Below are positions 13,448-26,111 of a DNA stretch of 64,000 nucleotides, one piece after another. The position numbers and the translations under genes are program-made. The DNA lies in assembly GCA_017624855.1 (NCBI GenBank), contig JAGAMF010000007.1:124001-188000 (forward strand), written 5' to 3'. A model generated the notes under the pieces. The model was not told where the DNA came from, did no database searches, and worked only from the letters and a program-made list of their open reading frames with translations. The DNA comes from Lachnospiraceae bacterium (GTDB lineage: Bacteria > Bacillota > Clostridia > Lachnospirales > Lachnospiraceae). Within the stretch, counting starts at the first letter, position 1. Every line of letters starts with the position of its first letter.

Positions 13448-14611
13448 ATGAAACAGTTGGAACTTGCCGATTCTTTGCTAAAAACGGCCAAGGAATTAAA
13501 AATACATTTTGCTACGGCAACCGCTTTTATGCAGTTGAAGGAATATGAGCAGATTTTCGGTCAACTGTATCAGATTTATTTTTCCTTGGAACTGCCGGAT
13601 ACGATTCTTCCGTATAAAAATGCTTTAAGCGAAATACGGGAATTTACAAATGAGTATAAGAAAGCAGCGCTTCAGGTGTTAAACCACATCATTACGGAGA
13701 CAATACTCTATCGCGGACAATATTGCATCATTCGCCGTACGGACCCGGTTCCCGGATTGGCGTCCCATATTATGACAAATCTGGGGCAAATCGTAGCCGC
13801 GCTGAATGAAGGATATATTCCGGTTATTGATATGCAGTTTGCAGAGAATATGTTTACACCGTTGAGTAGCGGTGGCAGTGTTAATGCATGGGAATTGTTT
13901 TTTAAGCAGCCATTTGAGGGGCATAATTTGGTTTCTGCAACAAGTGCACAAATATGCACATTAAAAGACGGAATCCCGAATTTCATGCCTTACTACAATA
14001 TGGAGCAACTTACCAATCCGTCATATATGCAGTTGTGGAAGGATGCCATAAAAAAATATATGCCTTTTTCCGATACCTTGGCAGAGGAGATTAAGAATGT
14101 GGAGCAGAAGTTTCCCTTTGGTAAAAAACGCATTTTGGGTGTTTTATGCAGGGGGACGGACTATACTTCCTTGCGTCCTCGCAATCATCCGGTGCAACCT
14201 GCCGCGGAGGCTATGATTGCCAAAGCAAAAAAAATAATGGAAGAATATAAATGTGACTATTGCTATTTGGCCACGGAAGATGAAAGCATTCTTTCGGCAT
14301 TTCGTGATGCTTTCGGAGAGCAATTGCTGGTATCTCAGGAAATGTATTTCCATAAAGAACAAAACATCGCATTATCTAAGATTTTGACAGAGGAGCCAAC
14401 ACAATTATATGAGAAGAATGTAGAATATTTAACTTCGCTCTATCTTTTAAGTCGCTGTAATTGCTTCCTTGCCGGTCGTACCGGAGGTGCGGTTGTAGCT
14501 GCTATATTAAATGAAAATCCCTACGAATATGCATATTTTTGGAATGAAGGAAAATATGGTATAGATGATGTGACAGCATTACAAAACTTAACGATAGCGT
14601 CTGTTTTTTGA
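13448..14611 (+). CDS. Putative fucosyltransferase-like (GT-B) protein
   Basis: A 387-residue soluble protein. The N-terminal 100 residues are helical and unrecognised. From about residue 220 the segment RILGVLCRGTDYTSLRP resembles the HxRxGD-type donor-binding loop of alpha-1,6-fucosyltransferase/NodZ/O-FucT enzymes, and the C-terminal NCFLAGRTGGAVVAAIL resembles their final nucleotide-sugar loop. The call is therefore a weak family match by pattern, not a proven glycosyltransferase. RYRG-type motifs earlier (YRGQYCIIRR) may belong to the acceptor region. Starts at ATG after GGAGGAAAAGAGAGGT. Followed by a strong terminator at 14626. No cell-surface gene cluster surrounds it. Confidence 0.5.
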   Translation: MKQLELADSLLKTAKELKIHFATATAFMQLKEYEQIFGQLYQIYFSLELPDTILPYKNALSEIREFTNEYKKAALQVLNHIITETILYRGQYCIIRRTDPVPGLASHIMTNLGQIVAALNEGYIPVIDMQFAENMFTPLSSGGSVNAWELFFKQPFEGHNLVSATSAQICTLKDGIPNFMPYYNMEQLTNPSYMQLWKDAIKKYMPFSDTLAEEIKNVEQKFPFGKKRILGVLCRGTDYTSLRPRNHPVQPAAEAMIAKAKKIMEEYKCDYCYLATEDESILSAFRDAFGEQLLVSQEMYFHKEQNIALSKILTEEPTQLYEKNVEYLTSLYLLSRCNCFLAGRTGGAVVAAILNENPYEYAYFWNEGKYGIDDVTALQNLTIASVF

Positions 14612-17059: not shown

Positions 17060-18148
17060 TTATAGTTTGCAGATGATTTGGGACAGATAAGTTGGATCTT
17101 TGATTTCTTCTACTTGGTTTCCGCCGGGGTATTCGTTATTGTATTTGTTTTTTACCTCACAACGGGTGCCTGTGCCTGCCAGGAACCACTCATATTCCAA
17201 ATCCAGATGACCGATATCCAATGCCTGATAGCCTGCTTTGTATAAGTCATAGGCCAGAACTCCGGCGGAGGGACCTAAGGCAATTAGGAAAAGAGTGTCG
17301 CTGTTGGCGTGTTGCAAAGCCGCAGCCAGAATTTCATCATACTTATCAAAAGAATTTTCGGCAGGCGCTTCAATTCTTCTGATTTGTTCGGCGTTATCAA
17401 ATAAATCATTTCCTACTCCAAGACCGGTAAGAGAGCCTTCCACCATAATCACATCCCGGCGGTTCCAAATTTGTTTTAGGGCATCAAATCTATGCTTGGG
17501 TGCATTGGTATGATTGTCGGCAAATAAGGCATAGGGTCTACTAAGATATGTATTATGATAAGTTCTGTTCAAGTCAATAAATTCTTTATGCTGTAATCTG
17601 ATTTCAGCAGTCATATATTGTCTTATTCCGGCTCGTCCCGGGGCATTGTATTGCGATAAATCTCCGTAATTATTTGCAATGGCAATTAGGAAACCATCTT
17701 CATTTACCTGTATAACTTCTTTTAAGCGGGCTGTAAGATTAGGGTCTAAACGCTGAAACTTCTGTCGCGCTATGTTAGACATAAGAGCAAATTCACCGTC
17801 TCCGAATCTGGCCAAACTCTTTCGATTATGGATAATGTCTTTTATGGTATCATCAATACTATAAAATTTTGGATAAAACATACTGTCATCTTTTAAAGCA
17901 GGATCGTTTAATTCATATCTTAAATTGTCAAAATGGCTATCGATATGTTTTACCTGTAAATTGAGAGAGTTGCTTATGGATTCGTTGCTTCTTGCCAAAT
18001 CTTTTTGATTGCGAAACAATTCAGTAAGAAGAAGGGAAGTGTTGTTTAAATCACTTCGTAATTTGGTGTTTTCGTCTTTCAATTTGATAATTTCGTCCAA
18101 GCAAACAGATACAATCTGTTGCAACTCGTCTATATTCATGTGTTCCAT
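17060..18148 (-). CDS. GT-D-fold (DUF1792-type) glycosyltransferase-like protein
   Basis: A 362-residue protein with an N-terminal coiled-coil-like helix (about residues 5-70, heptads of Leu) and a C-terminal GT-D domain. Recognisable blocks are SLARFGDGEFALM, EGSLTGLGVGNDLF, ALGPSAGVLAYDL and DIGHLDLEYEWF, as in the DUF1792 glucosyltransferase domain known from streptococcal adhesin glycosylation. It probably transfers a hexose to a protein or glycan; the acceptor is not evident because no adhesin or Sec accessory genes are nearby. Start chosen at 18148, 7 nt after AAAGGAG; the upstream in-frame ATG at 18154 is too close to that site. Single gene, divergent from 18365. Confidence 0.75.
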   Translation of the reverse strand: MEHMNIDELQQIVSVCLDEIIKLKDENTKLRSDLNNTSLLLTELFRNQKDLARSNESISNSLNLQVKHIDSHFDNLRYELNDPALKDDSMFYPKFYSIDDTIKDIIHNRKSLARFGDGEFALMSNIARQKFQRLDPNLTARLKEVIQVNEDGFLIAIANNYGDLSQYNAPGRAGIRQYMTAEIRLQHKEFIDLNRTYHNTYLSRPYALFADNHTNAPKHRFDALKQIWNRRDVIMVEGSLTGLGVGNDLFDNAEQIRRIEAPAENSFDKYDEILAAALQHANSDTLFLIALGPSAGVLAYDLYKAGYQALDIGHLDLEYEWFLAGTGTRCEVKNKYNNEYPGGNQVEEIKDPTYLSQIICKL

Positions 18149-18364
18149 CACCATGCTCCTTTCTTGGGGCGTATTATGGATAAAAATTATATTTACCCCC
18201 TCATTCTATCATTTCTTAGAGTAAGATGCTATTCTTTTATGGAAGTTATTGTAATGTAGGCATTTATTATGTTAGAATATTTGTGATTCTTGCAACCTTT
18301 TATTGTTCTACACGGTGTTAGAGATAAAGGACAAAAAAGAATTGTGTGAAAGGAAGAAATAGAA

Positions 18365-19372: not shown

Positions 19373-19413
19373 GTTTTTGGTTGTGAAATCGATCAATATA
19401 GGAATATAAAATG

Positions 19414-19440
19414 GACTGTCGCGAAAGCGGCAGTCTTTTT
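19414..19440 (+). terminator. Intrinsic terminator
   Basis: GACTGTCGC-GAAA-GCGGCAGTC, a tetraloop hairpin (19414-19435), followed by TTTTT. Confidence 0.9.
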
Positions 19441-19585: not shown

Positions 19586-20800
19586 ATGAAACTAATTCCC
19601 ATACCTAAAGACAAATATGATGAATATAAATTAACCCTTATGTTTGACTGCTACAAATGGGATCCTCAGTACTTAGACCATAATACCGTGGCGCCTTATG
19701 CTGTGGTTGTAACCAAGGAGGAACATAAGGAACTGGTGAAGCTGATTGAGGCCATTGATGCGGAAACCACGGCTGCGGAGGAGTATATCAATCAACATCA
19801 GGAATTAATAAAGCCTCTCGCTCTGCCTAAGCGTATCCGCAGGGAATTACATAAAATTACCAACTACGAGAGAGACAAGCATGTTCGCTTGAAACGCTAC
19901 GATTTTCATCCTACGGTGGAAGGGAAGTGGGCGGTAAGCGAAGTAAACAGCGATGTGCCCGGCGGTTACGCGGAAGGCTCTCTTATGCCTAAGCTTGCCT
20001 TGGATACCATTGGTGCCGGCGACAAATATTGGTGCATGAATTTTGGTGAAGTCATGGTAAAAGCCATCTCCGGCAAGGTTCGTCCCGGAGGCAGAATTAT
20101 GTTGGTACACTGTACCTCTTACAGCGACGACCGTCAGGTAATGCAATTCCTGGGTGACCGTTTAAAAGAAGCCGGTTTTGAAGTGCTCTACGGGGCTGCA
20201 GACCATGTAAAATATGAGAATGGCAAAGCATACAGTATTCTTGACGGTAATGAGGGCGAGCTGGACATGGTATACCGCTATACGCCTCTTGAATGGATGA
20301 TTGAGATGCGACGCAAGTATTACAAGGACTATTACGGCTCTACGGTGCCTACCTGCAACCATCCCATCGCCATGTACGCTCAGACCAAGCGATTTCCCTT
20401 GCTTTGGGACGAGTTGGAACGAAACGGTATCAGCATGGCAACTTGGCGTGAGCTTTTACCGGAAACCCTTGAAGTAAAAGATGCAAAAGGTAAGGAAGGC
20501 TATATCTATAAACCTGCCTGCGGAAGAGTAGGTGACGGAATCTCTATCAAGGAAGCCTGTATAGGGAACGAATATAAGGAAATTATGAAGGATGTAAAAT
20601 GGCATCCCAAGAAGTATCTTGCCCAGAAGAGATTCAATCCGCAGCCCCTGGAGGGAGAGAATGGTGAGAAATACAATGTGTGCCTGGGCTGTTATACCAT
20701 TGATGGCAAGCATGCGGCATATTATGCCCGCATCAGTAAGTCCATGCGTATTGATTCCTCGGCAGCAGATACGCCTGTATTGATTGAGAAAGGGGAGTAA
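19586..20800 (+). CDS. Glutathionylspermidine-synthetase-like ATP-grasp ligase
   Basis: A 404-residue protein of the glutathionylspermidine synthase C-terminal family, an ATP-grasp fold that forms amide bonds between a carboxylate and an amine. Clear family blocks are RYDFHPTVEGKWAVSEVNSD then VPGGYAEGS (about residues 108-136) and YKPACGRVGDGISI (about 312-325), the region expected to close over ATP. The amidase half found in the E. coli bifunctional enzyme is absent. It begins a tight operon: next gene starts 3 nt after its stop, and a homospermidine-synthase-like enzyme follows. By context it may attach a polyamine to an acid, but neither substrate is visible in the sequence. Confidence 0.78.
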   Translation: MKLIPIPKDKYDEYKLTLMFDCYKWDPQYLDHNTVAPYAVVVTKEEHKELVKLIEAIDAETTAAEEYINQHQELIKPLALPKRIRRELHKITNYERDKHVRLKRYDFHPTVEGKWAVSEVNSDVPGGYAEGSLMPKLALDTIGAGDKYWCMNFGEVMVKAISGKVRPGGRIMLVHCTSYSDDRQVMQFLGDRLKEAGFEVLYGAADHVKYENGKAYSILDGNEGELDMVYRYTPLEWMIEMRRKYYKDYYGSTVPTCNHPIAMYAQTKRFPLLWDELERNGISMATWRELLPETLEVKDAKGKEGYIYKPACGRVGDGISIKEACIGNEYKEIMKDVKWHPKKYLAQKRFNPQPLEGENGEKYNVCLGCYTIDGKHAAYYARISKSMRIDSSAADTPVLIEKGE

Positions 20801-20803
20801 ATC

Positions 20804-21457
20804 ATGACAGATAAAGAAATATATCGGATTTGGGCCCCTTTGGGTAAAAGGTGGTCAGAGTGGGTGCGCCCGGTGCCTTTTGTGGAGATTCATGAACATT
20901 CCAAGGCGTACAGTTTAACTCTGCATGATGTGCCGGTGCCGGATTTGTCGGAGGATAAGTTTAAGGATGCGGCAATCATCGTGGATTTGCCCGGTGCGGA
21001 AAGCGTGGAAGCAGGGCTTGCTTATGCAAGATTAGGGTATCGCCCCATTCCGCTTTTTAACGGAACCATTGAGCAGTCGGGAGCCAGAACCACGGTGGAT
21101 AACCAGTCGGTGGGTATGGCTTTAGTGGAAGGCGTGAAAGTGGTTCGCGAACTGGATTTAAAAGAGGAGGCGCTTCCTGTTTTTATGTTGGACAGCAACC
21201 GTTTGCATCGCCATCGCATTGATGTGACGGTGTTTGATAACAGTTGGGACATCTATGCACACGATATGCCTTCGGCGGATTATTTTATCAAAAACAATAT
21301 TCATAAAATCGTGGTTGTAGGGGATTTTATCGGAAGAGATTTAAGGAAGATTCTCTATGGCTTCCAGAAGAAAAAGCTGGAGATTTGGTTTGCCAAAGAC
21401 GATAATGAACCGAAAAAGATTAAGGTGCGTAAGCCCTTGTGGGGAGAGGTTGAGTAG
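20804..21457 (+). CDS. Unrecognised protein in the polyamine-type operon
   Basis: A 217-residue soluble protein with no family that I recognise. Distinct stretches include DAAIIVDLPGAESVEAGLAY, RLGYRPIPLFNGT, and FDNSWDIYAHDMPSADYF, suggesting an alpha/beta fold with alternating hydrophobic strands (AAIIVDL, VFMLD, KIVVVGD). It starts 3 nt after the ATP-grasp gene, and the next gene starts at a TTG immediately after its stop, with the Shine-Dalgarno inside its last codons. Such tight packing implies that the three proteins work together, perhaps in one complex. No signal peptide or membrane segment. Function unknown. Confidence 0.72.
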   Translation: MTDKEIYRIWAPLGKRWSEWVRPVPFVEIHEHSKAYSLTLHDVPVPDLSEDKFKDAAIIVDLPGAESVEAGLAYARLGYRPIPLFNGTIEQSGARTTVDNQSVGMALVEGVKVVRELDLKEEALPVFMLDSNRLHRHRIDVTVFDNSWDIYAHDMPSADYFIKNNIHKIVVVGDFIGRDLRKILYGFQKKKLEIWFAKDDNEPKKIKVRKPLWGEVE

Positions 21458-21458
21458 A

Positions 21459-22928
21459 TTGATTAAATTTGACGGACGGATTGTGCAGTTTGGATTCGGC
21501 GCAGTAGGTAAAAGTTTTTATGAGAAACTGCCGAAGGAAATCCGTTTTAACGAAAATAAATACTATGTCATTACCGGGAATCCGGAGGAGTTTGACGACT
21601 TCATGAACATGGGGGGACTGGCGGCCAATTTTATAACGGCGGAAGTGACCAGAGAGAATTACGGTACCGTGTTTGAGCCCTATCTGTCGGAAGGGGATCT
21701 TTTAATCGATTTCGCGGATATGGTGGGTACAAGAGACATCTGTGAATGGTGCGCCAAGCGAAACATCATGTATCTTAATACCGGTGAGGCAGACTGGCCG
21801 GATCATTGGTACAGCATCTTTAACGAGAATGATTTAAAGCACGAGTTGAGAAAGCAGTGTGACGCGAATTCTGAGATAAACAAGTACCCCATCGTGCTTC
21901 ATCACGGAAATAATCCGGGCCTGGTATCTCATTTCGTAAAAGCTGCCATTGAGTATGTGGTAAACACCCAATTTAAGAAAGACAAGCGTTTAAAAGCCCT
22001 GATAAAAGAGGGGAAGTTTAACGAGGCGGCAAGGGCCTTGGGTGTGTGCCAGATTCATGTAAACGATGTGGATTTGCAGGAGATGAAGGCGGAATACAGC
22101 AATGATTTGTTGTACAGTACCTGGTGCATGGAGTCCTTCTGGTATGAAATGCTAAGCGAGGCCACCATCAATATCGGTACCCACGAGAAGATTGATTATG
22201 AAGATGAATGTAACTTCGTAAAATACGATAAAGGCTATCTTGAATTTACCAAGGCGGCAGCAGACAGACGGTGTCGAACCTTTTATCCGGGAGGCGAGTT
22301 TGACGCTTACCTTGTGCCTCACGAGGAGACCGTGTCCATTGCCAAGAATTTGGAAATTTATGAGGACGGCAAGGTGGTGTATCGCCCTACGGTGATGTTT
22401 CTCTATCAGCCCTGTCCTTATGCTACGCAATATTTTAAAAGTGCCAAGGTAAACGAATATCCGGTACCTGACCCTGACAAGCCTCAGGATTACGAGAATG
22501 AGGACGGAACCGGCATTATCCACGGCTATGTGTATCCGAAGCGCTCGCAAGTGGCGTACAGGGAGCATATTGCCACCGGAACGGAGTATGTGGGTATTCT
22601 TCTTTTAGGGGAAAATTTCGACCCGGTATGGGTAGGAAACCGTGTGGAATTGTCTTATTTGGATAAAGATAAAAAGTACGCATATTGGCAGACACCCACT
22701 ATTACGCCGGTATCTATGTCGGCGTTGGCGGCTTTGTGCTGGATGCTAAAAAACAAGGGTAAAGGCGGTATCTATTTCCCCGATGATATACCGGACTATG
22801 CTTATATTATAAAAACCGCAGAAAAGTATATTTCCAAGACGATTTATAAAACTTTTACCAAGGATGAAGTGGCAACGGCGTTGAAGCTGAATTTTAGCGA
22901 TTTACAGGTAAAAGATATATTTGTCTGA
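21459..22928 (+). CDS. Homospermidine-synthase-like NAD-dependent enzyme
   Basis: A 489-residue protein starting at TTG, chosen because GGGGAGAGG ends 9 nt upstream; the longer open frame overlaps the preceding gene by 100 nt without a site. The N-terminus is a Rossmann fold of the saccharopine dehydrogenase/homospermidine synthase type (IVQFGFGAVGKSFYEKL). LLIDFADMVGTRDICEWC, NTGEADWPDHW and HHGNNPGLVSHFVKAAIEY match homospermidine synthase blocks. Such enzymes make homospermidine from putrescine (or related amines) using NAD as a cofactor. Context with an ATP-grasp ligase suggests that the amine product is conjugated. Whether the true substrate is putrescine is inferred. Confidence 0.78.
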   Translation: MIKFDGRIVQFGFGAVGKSFYEKLPKEIRFNENKYYVITGNPEEFDDFMNMGGLAANFITAEVTRENYGTVFEPYLSEGDLLIDFADMVGTRDICEWCAKRNIMYLNTGEADWPDHWYSIFNENDLKHELRKQCDANSEINKYPIVLHHGNNPGLVSHFVKAAIEYVVNTQFKKDKRLKALIKEGKFNEAARALGVCQIHVNDVDLQEMKAEYSNDLLYSTWCMESFWYEMLSEATINIGTHEKIDYEDECNFVKYDKGYLEFTKAAADRRCRTFYPGGEFDAYLVPHEETVSIAKNLEIYEDGKVVYRPTVMFLYQPCPYATQYFKSAKVNEYPVPDPDKPQDYENEDGTGIIHGYVYPKRSQVAYREHIATGTEYVGILLLGENFDPVWVGNRVELSYLDKDKKYAYWQTPTITPVSMSALAALCWMLKNKGKGGIYFPDDIPDYAYIIKTAEKYISKTIYKTFTKDEVATALKLNFSDLQVKDIFV

Positions 22929-23003
22929 TGCAGATGTACGAATATTGCGTAAAAAATAAATAGATGTTATAATCCGATTAATTTACAAAAGGAGAATTTG
23001 CTT

Positions 23004-23681
23004 ATGGAATGGATTATTGGTGGAGTTATTGCTTTTATTTTAGTTCTTGTGATTGCGGTAGCCGTAGTTGTCATTGTTACATATAACGGCCTGGTGCAGT
23101 CAAGAAATAAGGTAAAAAATTCTTTTGCACAGATTGATGCGCAGTTGCAGAGAAGATTTGATTTGTTGCCCAATCTGGTAGAAACCGTAGAGAGCTTTGC
23201 ATCTCATGAAAAGAAGATTTTGCAGAATGTGGCTGCGGCAAGAAGCGGATATTTAAGCGCCAATGTTGCCAAAGACAAGCTTGCCATGAACAAACAGTTG
23301 TCTTCCACATTGAAATCATTGTTTGTGGTTTCCGAGAATTATCCTGATTTAAAAGCAAACGCCAACTTTTTAAATTTACAGGAAGAACTTTCCGAGACAG
23401 AAGATAAAATCACTTTTGCCAGACAGTTTTATAATGATGCGGTTACCATGTACAACAATAAGCTGCAGATGTTCCCCGGAAATATGATTGCCGGTATGTT
23501 TGGTTTTAAGGAAGAGGAATTGTTTAATGTAGAGGATGAAGCAAGAGATATGCCGATTCTCTTTGACGAAAACGATTTGACCGATGAGGAGAAGGAACGC
23601 TATCCACAGAAGTGTCCTCATTGCATGGGCGTGCTTGACGGTACAAGAAATTGCCCTTACTGCGGTGCAAGAGTCGTATAG
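23004..23681 (+). CDS. LemA-family protein with C-terminal zinc ribbon
   Basis: A 225-residue protein. Residues about 5-27 are a single N-terminal membrane anchor; residues 30-180 are the helical LemA domain (YNGLVQSRNKVKNSFAQIDA, RRFDLLPNLVETV, FARQFYNDAVTMYNNKLQ). Residues about 200-225 add CPHCMGVLDGTRNCPYCG, a four-cysteine zinc ribbon not present in typical LemA proteins. The same tail ends the unrelated protein at 38277. The ATG at 23004 lies 9 nt after AAAGGAG; an upstream TTG at 22998 is too close. LemA proteins often pair with DUF2207 or TPM-domain proteins, and a DUF2207 gene converges from the right (23928). Function of the family is not settled; membrane/stress roles are reported. 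Confidence 0.85.
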   Translation: MEWIIGGVIAFILVLVIAVAVVVIVTYNGLVQSRNKVKNSFAQIDAQLQRRFDLLPNLVETVESFASHEKKILQNVAAARSGYLSANVAKDKLAMNKQLSSTLKSLFVVSENYPDLKANANFLNLQEELSETEDKITFARQFYNDAVTMYNNKLQMFPGNMIAGMFGFKEEELFNVEDEARDMPILFDENDLTDEEKERYPQKCPHCMGVLDGTRNCPYCGARVV

Positions 23682-23927: not shown

Positions 23928-26111
23928 TTAGTGACCGCCACCGCCGCTTCCGCCGCCGCGTCCACCGCCGCCGTAGCCAAAACCACCGCCACCGCCGCCA
24001 TAGCCGCCACCACCAAAACCACCGTAGCCGCCGCTTCTTGCGGTGCGGGAACCGGTACGGACTGCCGAACGGATAGAACGGCTGGATGTATGGAAGTGTC
24101 TTGAACGATAGCTGGGATTTACCAGCATTTCGCTCTGCTTCTGAACTGCTTCGGGGCAGTTAATGCTGATGGCTTTACTTACTTTTTCCGAAATACCGAA
24201 AGCAGTTGCGTAAACCAGATATTTTTCCCAAATGGGTAATTCAATGTATGTACGCTCTTTGATTAAGGTATCGCTGTTTAAGAAGTTATATAAGCCACGC
24301 CATTTCTCGTACTCTGTTTCTCCGAATTGTGTAAGGAGAACAAATTTTCTCGAACGTATTCTTAAAAAGATTCCACACGCCAAACATGTTGCCGCAAAGA
24401 TGAAAAATCCGCCAAAAGCGAAATCCAAACGGCTCTGGTAAGTAATCAAGTTTATCAATGCAAAAATGACTGCCATTACAAAGTATGTGGTAGAGTAACC
24501 TTTTACTTTCTTGCCGGGTGCTTTGTAATCCACCTTCTGCAAGTAGCCGTCTTTTACACCAATGTGAGTGATGGATTTTTCCATATCTCTTACAAACTTA
24601 TCCGTGTTACCGTAATCGGCACTGATTCTGCGCTGGAAGGATTTCATGTTAATATCGCTTCCTGCGGCATGGCGTACCAAAAGGTTGAAGTAGTATTCTT
24701 CGCACAGGGTTAAAGGTTCATCATCCAAGTCGTTCACCACAGGTTCTGCGGGAGGTACAACCGGGGTTGCTTCCTGCGTAATGGGATCGATGTTCCAAGT
24801 CATCTGGCCGGGTGTGGGAATCACACTCTTTTTCGGTTTCTTTAAGATAAAAATACGAATATCATCGGGAGTGTTTTCCACGATTTTAATGTATTTTTTA
24901 CGGGCAAGACTTAACAAAATTGCCGAATAAACATTACCGTCATCTTTAGGGGCTTTATGTCTTGCAAAAACAAGAGCAGCCGCAAAGTTGGGATCCAAAT
25001 CGCTTGGAATGTCACGATACACTTCAAGTTCCTGAGTCGGCTCAAAGAAAGTAAACTTTGATTTGATCAGTTTCTTGGTGGTTAACGCAAGAATGACAAC
25101 CAGTCCGGATGCAGCCAACATAATCAGCAATACAACTACTTTGGCAATGTCAAAGCCGGTCAGCATATTGTTATACGCTTCTTTTTCGTCATAAGCTTCC
25201 TGTAAATAAACATCGTAGGTATATATGTTATCGGGAGCATAATCCGTAAAGATATGCTTATCTTCATTGAAGGATAACATGTCGAATTCAATAAATGTAT
25301 TGTAAGGATGGAATTTTAATTCATCCTCATCCAAGTCGATGATAAAGGTATAGTATCCGGGGTTGGCCGTGGCCGATTCTTCCACAGGAAAACTTTCCTT
25401 GTCGGTACCATATGTAGTGACATAGTAGTTGCCCTGAGCAGGCATGTCCTCGTTGGGGAAAAGAATCTCCGCATGGAAACTCTCATAATGCTTTAAAGGA
25501 GAACCATCATGTAAACTCAGATAAAAATCTGAACAGTCTTTGTACTTTAAAGCAATGTTATAGATGTCGTATTCCACCTCAAAGGTCATTTCGTCGCGAT
25601 AGACACCATTCACATAAAACAAGAGACATTCATAATTGCGTTCTCCGTCGTAGGGGCCGTCGCTGTGATACCATTTAAAGGGTCCTAAGGGAGCATCCGT
25701 GTAGTCTTCGTCGTCCCAATACAACACGGGGCTTTCTTCCCATACATACCGACTGCCGTCATCCAGAATCTGAGTTACGGATTGAACATCGTAGTATACT
25801 TTTAGTCCATCCACATAAGTTTCCGGAAGATCAAGCCATAATTCCCAGAAGGGGTGATTTCTAGAAGCGGCATGAATATCAAAAGTAATGGTTTGTGTTA
25901 CATGCAGTTTACTGCCTTCTTCTTCGTCATCCACAACCACTCCCTTGTAGTCCACATCCGTGATGCGGGCATAGTCGTTGGGCAACCATGCGGTTTCCTG
26001 CAGATAAATTGACAGCATTTCCGCTAGCGGCACCCAGCAGGGAGAAGTGAACATTCCTATCATAAAAATAATGATAGTAGTGGTGACAAATTTGGAAAAT
26101 TTTTCGCCCAT
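23928..26111 (-). CDS. DUF2207-type membrane protein with glycine-rich tail
   Basis: A 727-residue protein. Residues about 10-30 are a signal/anchor segment; about 45-310 form the extracytoplasmic DUF2207 domain (ITDVDYKGVVVDDEEEGSKL ... TFDIHA); a transmembrane helix lies at about 322-345; a cytoplasmic region with a further pair of membrane segments follows (about 555-600); and the last 35 residues are Gly/Tyr/Ser repeats (GGFGGGGYGGGGGGFGYGG). These are the standard parts of the DUF2207/YciQ-like family, usually found with LemA. The ATG at 26111 follows AAGAAAGGAACAAAA. It converges with the LemA gene. Biochemical role unknown. Confidence 0.85.
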   Translation of the reverse strand: MGEKFSKFVTTTIIIFMIGMFTSPCWVPLAEMLSIYLQETAWLPNDYARITDVDYKGVVVDDEEEGSKLHVTQTITFDIHAASRNHPFWELWLDLPETYVDGLKVYYDVQSVTQILDDGSRYVWEESPVLYWDDEDYTDAPLGPFKWYHSDGPYDGERNYECLLFYVNGVYRDEMTFEVEYDIYNIALKYKDCSDFYLSLHDGSPLKHYESFHAEILFPNEDMPAQGNYYVTTYGTDKESFPVEESATANPGYYTFIIDLDEDELKFHPYNTFIEFDMLSFNEDKHIFTDYAPDNIYTYDVYLQEAYDEKEAYNNMLTGFDIAKVVVLLIMLAASGLVVILALTTKKLIKSKFTFFEPTQELEVYRDIPSDLDPNFAAALVFARHKAPKDDGNVYSAILLSLARKKYIKIVENTPDDIRIFILKKPKKSVIPTPGQMTWNIDPITQEATPVVPPAEPVVNDLDDEPLTLCEEYYFNLLVRHAAGSDINMKSFQRRISADYGNTDKFVRDMEKSITHIGVKDGYLQKVDYKAPGKKVKGYSTTYFVMAVIFALINLITYQSRLDFAFGGFFIFAATCLACGIFLRIRSRKFVLLTQFGETEYEKWRGLYNFLNSDTLIKERTYIELPIWEKYLVYATAFGISEKVSKAISINCPEAVQKQSEMLVNPSYRSRHFHTSSRSIRSAVRTGSRTARSGGYGGFGGGGYGGGGGGFGYGGGGRGGGSGGGGH

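Follow-up and report, generated by a model that had tools for sequence, protein, structure and literature searches.

What three tightly packed genes of a Lachnospiraceae bacterium do together, and on which molecule they act, is the question raised by a locus on contig JAGAMF010000007.1. The locus lies in a stretch of 64,000 nucleotides (nt), positions 124,001 to 188,000 of the contig, which is called the window here and whose numbering is used throughout. Gene 1 (19586..20800, + strand) encodes an ATP-grasp ligase of 404 amino acids (aa) belonging to the GSP_synth family (PF03738) and lacking an amidase domain, gene 2 (20804..21457, + strand) an alpha/beta protein of 217 aa with no family assigned, and gene 3 (21459..22928, + strand, TTG start) a homospermidine synthase (HSS)-like enzyme of 489 aa. 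The gaps of 3 and 1 nt given in the initial annotation were confirmed. A convergent gene (23928..26111, − strand) encodes a DUF2207 membrane protein of 727 aa (PF20990, 117.9 bits, cut-off 33; PF09972, 34.6 bits, cut-off 24.4), our proposed acceptor; the codons for its Gly-rich C-terminal tail, GGGFGYGGGGRGGGSGGGGH, lie at 23931..23990 (− strand). We propose that these genes cap a protein C-terminus with a polyamine, through triamine supply, tail ligation and a gene 2 product that would guide or reverse the ligation. This chain as a whole we put at an even chance, and we are more confident that the genes form a functional unit.

The recurrence of the set was followed through gene 2. Its relatives were scanned in one genome per species, 206 of 231 stretches were confirmed, and the best 80 of the 206 were analysed; the linkage counts thus describe the closer relatives. 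Near-identical loci were retained among the 80 (for example L024/L026, L028/L032 and L059/L061), and L021 and L029 share one contig. By record title the loci came from Lachnospiraceae, other Clostridia, Bacilli and a few others, many of them from animal gut samples. The initial annotation had asked whether the three genes are rarely adjacent elsewhere. They are not: within 400 nt, gene 1 was located upstream of gene 2 in 79 of the 80 loci, all from other genomes, and gene 3 downstream of it in 69. Clustering of all neighbours, in which the clusters of genes 1 to 3, DUF2207 and LemA were annotated, brought out one more constant member, encoded on the opposite strand, that matches the DUF2207 protein of the window. 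This gene lay 3' of the set, and convergent with it, in 64 of 80 loci. Of the 63 loci with space for it (1500 nt or more), 61 have it; it is missing from L029, which is a second copy on a contig with another set, and from L081, where 1567 nt were available. The cultured Lachnoclostridium sp. An131 (L018) is one example of a carrier of genes 1 to 3 and DUF2207. Genes 1 and 2 were accompanied by DUF2207 without gene 3 in nine of the 80 loci, and a LemA gene was directly downstream of the set in 12. DUF2207 is a more constant member of the unit than gene 3, so that the unit of three genes described at first does recur but is wider than was supposed. Mere adjacency without joint function, in favour of which nothing was found, deserves almost no credence, because the set recurs across genomes.

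Among 295 sampled genomes of the order, nine have gene 1 and exactly these nine have gene 2; the two genes were adjacent in all but one, where they lay on separate contigs; gene 3 was found nowhere in this sample except in the genome of the window itself. From these counts and those for the 80 loci we regard genes 1 and 2 as the core and gene 3 as a frequent addition in the closer clade. At genus level, DUF2207 was above the cut-off in exactly four of 31 genomes, the same four that have gene 2. All four carrier genomes that were tested have an OKR_DC decarboxylase homologue, a possible source of diamine, which the two non-carriers lack. A split set was observed on one contig of a single genome (L100 and L101). 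There, gene 2, gene 3, LemA and DUF2207 stand with a radical-SAM (UPF0004) gene replacing gene 1; about 19 kb off, a pair of genes 1 and 2 is preceded by a MatE transporter gene, and another DUF2207 gene is nearby.

Gene 1 matched PF03738 with 73.7 bits (cut-off 29.3), and this synthetase profile was the sole Pfam profile above its cut-off. R316, D318, E330, N332, K533, R538 and R598 of GspS align to kept residues of gene 1 (R104, D106, E119, N121, K309, R314 and R382). Of the seven, R316, D318, E330, N332, K533 and R598 bind metal or nucleotide in GspS. All seven residues are invariant in an alignment of 29 of the available relatives and in nine more diverse sequences that include YgiC and YjfC of Escherichia coli. 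E391, K498 and Q582 of GspS were not aligned to an identical residue, a point that the gapped alignment cannot settle. GspSA has the synthetase domain family and the seven aligned residues in common with gene 1; its amidase domain is absent from gene 1, and the sequence match is weak (E value 0.0051 to 2io7). Gene 1 is probably a carboxylate-polyamine ligase, and of this assignment we are more confident than of the whole capping chain.

Gene 3 resembles solved HSS in sequence and fold across its whole length. The HSS of Blastochloris viridis and Pseudomonas aeruginosa share with it the fold, the NAD-binding domain and the Glu-His-Glu triad, at 24-25% identity by structural alignment. The triad Glu237-His296-Glu298 together with Trp229 and Asn162 is kept in gene 3 as E230, H288, E290, W222 and N152. 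These five residues are invariant in the 34 sequences of the gene 3 clade that were aligned out of those available, and are shared with five HSS-like reference sequences. An HSS-like gene was also observed in Alteromonas mediterranea (L156:292-1716), between cyclic-peptide exporter and non-ribosomal peptide synthetase genes, where it may serve a polyamine-containing peptide product.

A target for the ligase was suggested by the organisation of gene 2 in more distant genomes. In eight other genomes of the order, gene 2 has a long form in which the gene 2 domain is followed by a hydrophobic region, reading by eye as about four membrane passes, and by a Gly-rich tail. One of the eight forms (370 aa) is interrupted ahead of the tail; the other seven are complete, at 405-452 aa, and each of them terminates in GG, as GFGG or GYGG. 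In six of the eight genomes no DUF2207 match exceeded the cut-off. A membrane protein with a Gly-rich tail thus accompanies gene 1 either within the gene 2 polypeptide (in cis) or as separate DUF2207 (in trans), and no other observation argues as strongly that the tail is the target of the system. Because gene 2 is elsewhere fused to a membrane segment with its own GG-ending tail, we propose that it works at the tail as well. Its structure model is confident, and 56 of the available sequences were aligned. Neither a profile nor a clear fold match was found for it in Pfam, NCBIfam, PHROGs, PADLOC, PDB sequences and two fold libraries. Weak fold similarity to nicotinamidase-like hydrolases, SRP GTPases, E1/ThiF-like proteins and SLOG was given no weight, the template-modelling score being at most 0.39 among the Foldseek matches listed.

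The DUF2207 protein of the window ends in GRGGGSGGGGH and is the only one among 393 open reading frames (ORFs) of at least 40 aa in the window with at least six Gly in its last 12 residues. Of the 64 DUF2207 genes linked to the set, 46 end in GGH, five in GGS and one in GGF, and 12 have a frame break within the glycine-codon tract. In all 12 of the latter, at least three glycine codons, the His codon and the stop are preserved in another frame, so that a Gly-rich tail with a final His is encoded in 58 of 64 when these are counted. The broken 3' ends were those of L024, L025, L026, L027, L028, L031, L032, L034, L040, L062, L079 and L083; they may reflect slippage, phase variation or misassembly of GC-rich repeats. 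Among 41 DUF2207 relatives, the commonest residue averaged 61% per column outside the last 15 positions and reached 98-100% over the last 12, the last three columns being fixed by selection of the 41 for a GGH end and a length of more than 600 aa.

Related ligases elsewhere also stand beside proteins with such ends. YgiC and YjfC of E. coli are named peptide--spermidine ligases in RefSeq, and the work of Pederick et al. (2023) on the two enzymes reportedly agrees with this naming. Their partner proteins YgiB and YjfM both end in GG; the end of YgiB was known beforehand, and YjfM and the plasmid and phage loci served as blind tests. Eleven plasmid loci were picked by hand from 40 listed of 158 records, covering alpha- and gammaproteobacteria, an Arthrobacter, a cyanobacterium and a Bacillus. 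An ORF ending in GG was adjacent to the ligase gene in seven of them (L143, L144, L145, L146, L148, L150 and L153), including an Arthrobacter and a Bacillus; the record of L146 is unannotated, and there the ORF with the GG end lies in a different frame and overlaps the ligase gene. For background, GG ends were absent from 580 other ORFs in the neighbourhoods of the Bacillota loci (at least 70 aa, called mechanically, some cut by contig ends, and not from plasmid hosts) and from the 65 other plasmid-locus ORFs listed. In phage Motura (L159:4268-7093), an ORF for a lipoprotein-like protein of 127 aa ending in RGGFGSTGSSFSAGG (GG) is located between hss and gss. Motura is an independent case of an HSS, a ligase and a tailed protein together, and judging by the GG-ending ORF, the acceptor in this published cluster may be a protein and not glutathione.

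Most of the GG-ending partners (L143-L150, L102, L103 and L159) carry, some 5-25 residues ahead of the terminal GG, a motif resembling RGGFG, which was not seen in the Bacillus locus L153. Judging by this motif and the GG end, the signal for the ligase may be in two parts. At L153 (379-4725), the GSP_synth ligase gene is flanked by the gene for a small protein rich in Ser and Gly, with a GFGG end, and by a gene of the poly-gamma-glutamate hydrolase family; NADAR and macro-domain genes are nearby.

A mechanism consistent with these observations can be put as follows. Gene 3, using NAD, would convert diamines of the putrescine type into a triamine, which is probably homospermidine or closely analogous to it. 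Gene 1, as an enzyme of the GspS/YgiC/YjfC kind, would activate the C-terminal carboxylate of a peptide with ATP and join it to the polyamine by an amide bond. The acceptor would be the DUF2207 membrane protein at its Gly-rich C-terminal tail; a by-eye reading of the hydrophobic stretches places this tail in the cytoplasm, and the negative end of the protein would become polycationic. Gene 2 would be an enzyme-like or ligand-binding domain at the tail and could serve as adaptor, sensor or remover of the tag. Linkage, family memberships, catalytic residues and conserved tails were observed directly, while the substrate, the product and the acceptor, as well as the topology and what gene 2 does, are inferred. 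The initial annotation had the genes make a polyamine and couple it to a peptide, cell-wall or small-acid partner. Both enzyme families do occur in one conserved unit; the likeliest acceptor is now a protein C-terminus rather than a cell-wall component or a small acid. More tentatively, and with somewhat less than even confidence, we suggest that GspS-like ligases are a general and so far unrecognised class of C-terminal protein-polyaminylation systems in several phyla and in phages, each capping the Gly-rich tail of a co-encoded membrane protein. The Bacillota set, which adds a triamine synthase of its own, the gene 2 domain without known relatives and DUF2207 as acceptor, would then be one of these, and the published hss-gss pairs would be of the same kind and not a glutathione pathway.

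Several observations weigh against this mechanism. The DUF2207 genes linked to the set end in His (Ser or Phe in six of 64) and not in Gly like the other ligase partners. Gly-rich tails were also present in control DUF2207 proteins from other genomes of the phylum, in all 28 that were readable among 29 loci; the last residue was Arg in 13, Trp in five, Asp in four, and Phe, Ser and Gly in two each, and GGH was found in none. Since the control tails are Gly-rich and none ends in GGH, the Gly-rich tail is a trait of the DUF2207 family and the GGH end is typical of this clade; as a family trait, the tail is no proof of ligation. One control protein (L125) even ends in GG, and no relative of gene 1 was found in its genome (G458). 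In the phylum sample, gene 1 had six weak matches besides its own genome (E values 4.9e-8 to 3.2e-5), and two of them were in genomes that supplied control tails (G475 and G476). Four of the 11 plasmid loci were without a GG neighbour, with CCG at L149, other ends at L151 and L152, and none found at L147. Gene 3 was not found in the genomes with the long gene 2, which indicates that the ligase can exist without it. The final His and the general Gly-richness of DUF2207 tails are the main weaknesses of the proposal that these tails are capped.

These two features would fit a ligase that acts on another protein or on gene 2, with DUF2207 merely a co-regulated envelope protein whose tail has another role: Gly-rich DUF2207 tails occur whether or not the system is present, and the one in the window ends in His, not GG. 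However, no ORF of at least 40 aa in the window ends in GG, and none besides DUF2207 (GGGGH) has a comparably Gly-rich end; DUF2207 remains beside genes 1 and 2 in the nine loci without gene 3, and the long gene 2 carries a GG tail of its own. We judge a different protein acceptor unlikely. A little more weight, though still well below an even chance, is given to conjugation of a small molecule, which would count against tail capping. Gene 1 would then join homospermidine to a free thiol tripeptide, an amino acid or a peptide, giving a redox or storage compound resembling glutathionylhomospermidine, and DUF2207 and LemA would be transport or stress partners. GspS itself makes glutathionylspermidine. 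The clustering of hss with a glutathionylspermidine synthetase homologue in phage Motura and beta-Proteobacteria was read as pointing to potential formation of glutathionylhomospermidine (PMC9992855). The recurrent GG-ending neighbours of GspS-like ligases, one of them exactly between hss and gss in Motura, argue for a protein acceptor instead.

The amine is the other part of the capping mechanism on which the evidence is divided. As to the active-site residues by which the HSS assignment was to be judged, the triad, Trp229 and Asn162 are kept, but the position of Glu117 is A111 in gene 3, with Glu at the preceding residue 110, and that of Glu210 is D203, where Asp retains the negative charge. 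The five reference sequences have Glu at both positions, and within the 34 gene 3 sequences D203 is invariant and E110 nearly so. According to PMC8489232, Glu117 forms the ionic slide, Glu210 the inner amino site, and Trp a cation-pi interaction; the substitution E117Q leaves the Blastochloris enzyme 1.5% of its activity and E117K leaves none, and a negatively charged residue at position 210 was termed indispensable. Because the Glu117 and Glu210 positions differ, the product of gene 3 may be homospermidine or a related amine. Gene 3 may not be an HSS itself: an NAD-dependent relative that couples amines but takes a different substrate, such as a longer amine, is a substantial possibility that we place slightly short of even, and one compatible with capping.

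The initial annotation put this set forward as its main candidate for an undescribed system. No description of the exact set of genes 1 to 3 with DUF2207 was found in the open-licence literature searched, but the hss-gss clustering (PMC9992855) and the GspS-like ligases of PspA operons (PMC11237479) are already in print. Like the set, the pairs YgiB-YgiC and YjfM-YjfC of E. coli combine a GSP_synth ligase without amidase with a tailed protein, here of the DUF1190 family. YgiC and YjfC share the residues at catalytic positions with gene 1 but only 16% identity, they are not accompanied by an HSS, gene 2 or DUF2207, and their partners end in GG, unlike the GGGGH end in the window. The cluster of phage Motura resembles the set in having an HSS near a GspS-like ligase; its HSS is 22.9% identical to gene 3, and no relative of gene 2 was found in phages. 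The PspA-CesT/Tir operons have GspS-like ligases, polyamine genes and membrane proteins in common with the set, and a tie between polyamines and membrane stress was proposed for them (PMC11237479). The Bacillota set is set apart from these operons by its constant members, genes 1 to 3 and DUF2207, and less often LemA.

Were capping to hold, bacterial proteins would be modified post-translationally at their C-termini by polyamines, and ligases of the YgiC/YjfC type would have a natural acceptor. DUF2207, still a "predicted membrane protein" in Pfam, would gain a concrete and testable function, many Clostridia and Bacilli would have their polyamine supply tied to a membrane protein, and the published hss-gss clusters would be read differently. 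The proposal predicts a mass shift at the last residue of a named protein, which would be lost upon removal of gene 1.

Further features were located around the set. A gene for a LemA-family protein with C-terminal CxxC pairs (PF04011, 189 bits, cut-off 26.2) is present between gene 3 and the DUF2207 gene at 23004..23681 (+ strand); its ATG start at 23004 was taken from the sequence, while the listed ORF begins at a TTG at 22998. A terminator-like hairpin 5' of gene 1 (19413..19436, + strand) is a consensus match only, and the whole stretch contained three such hairpins against 4.1 expected in shuffles. A protein of 387 aa with no Pfam match above the cut-off is encoded at 13448-14611 (+ strand). 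Also 5' of the region, at 17060-18154 (− strand), is a gene for a GT-D fold glycosyltransferase (PF08759, 268.7 bits).

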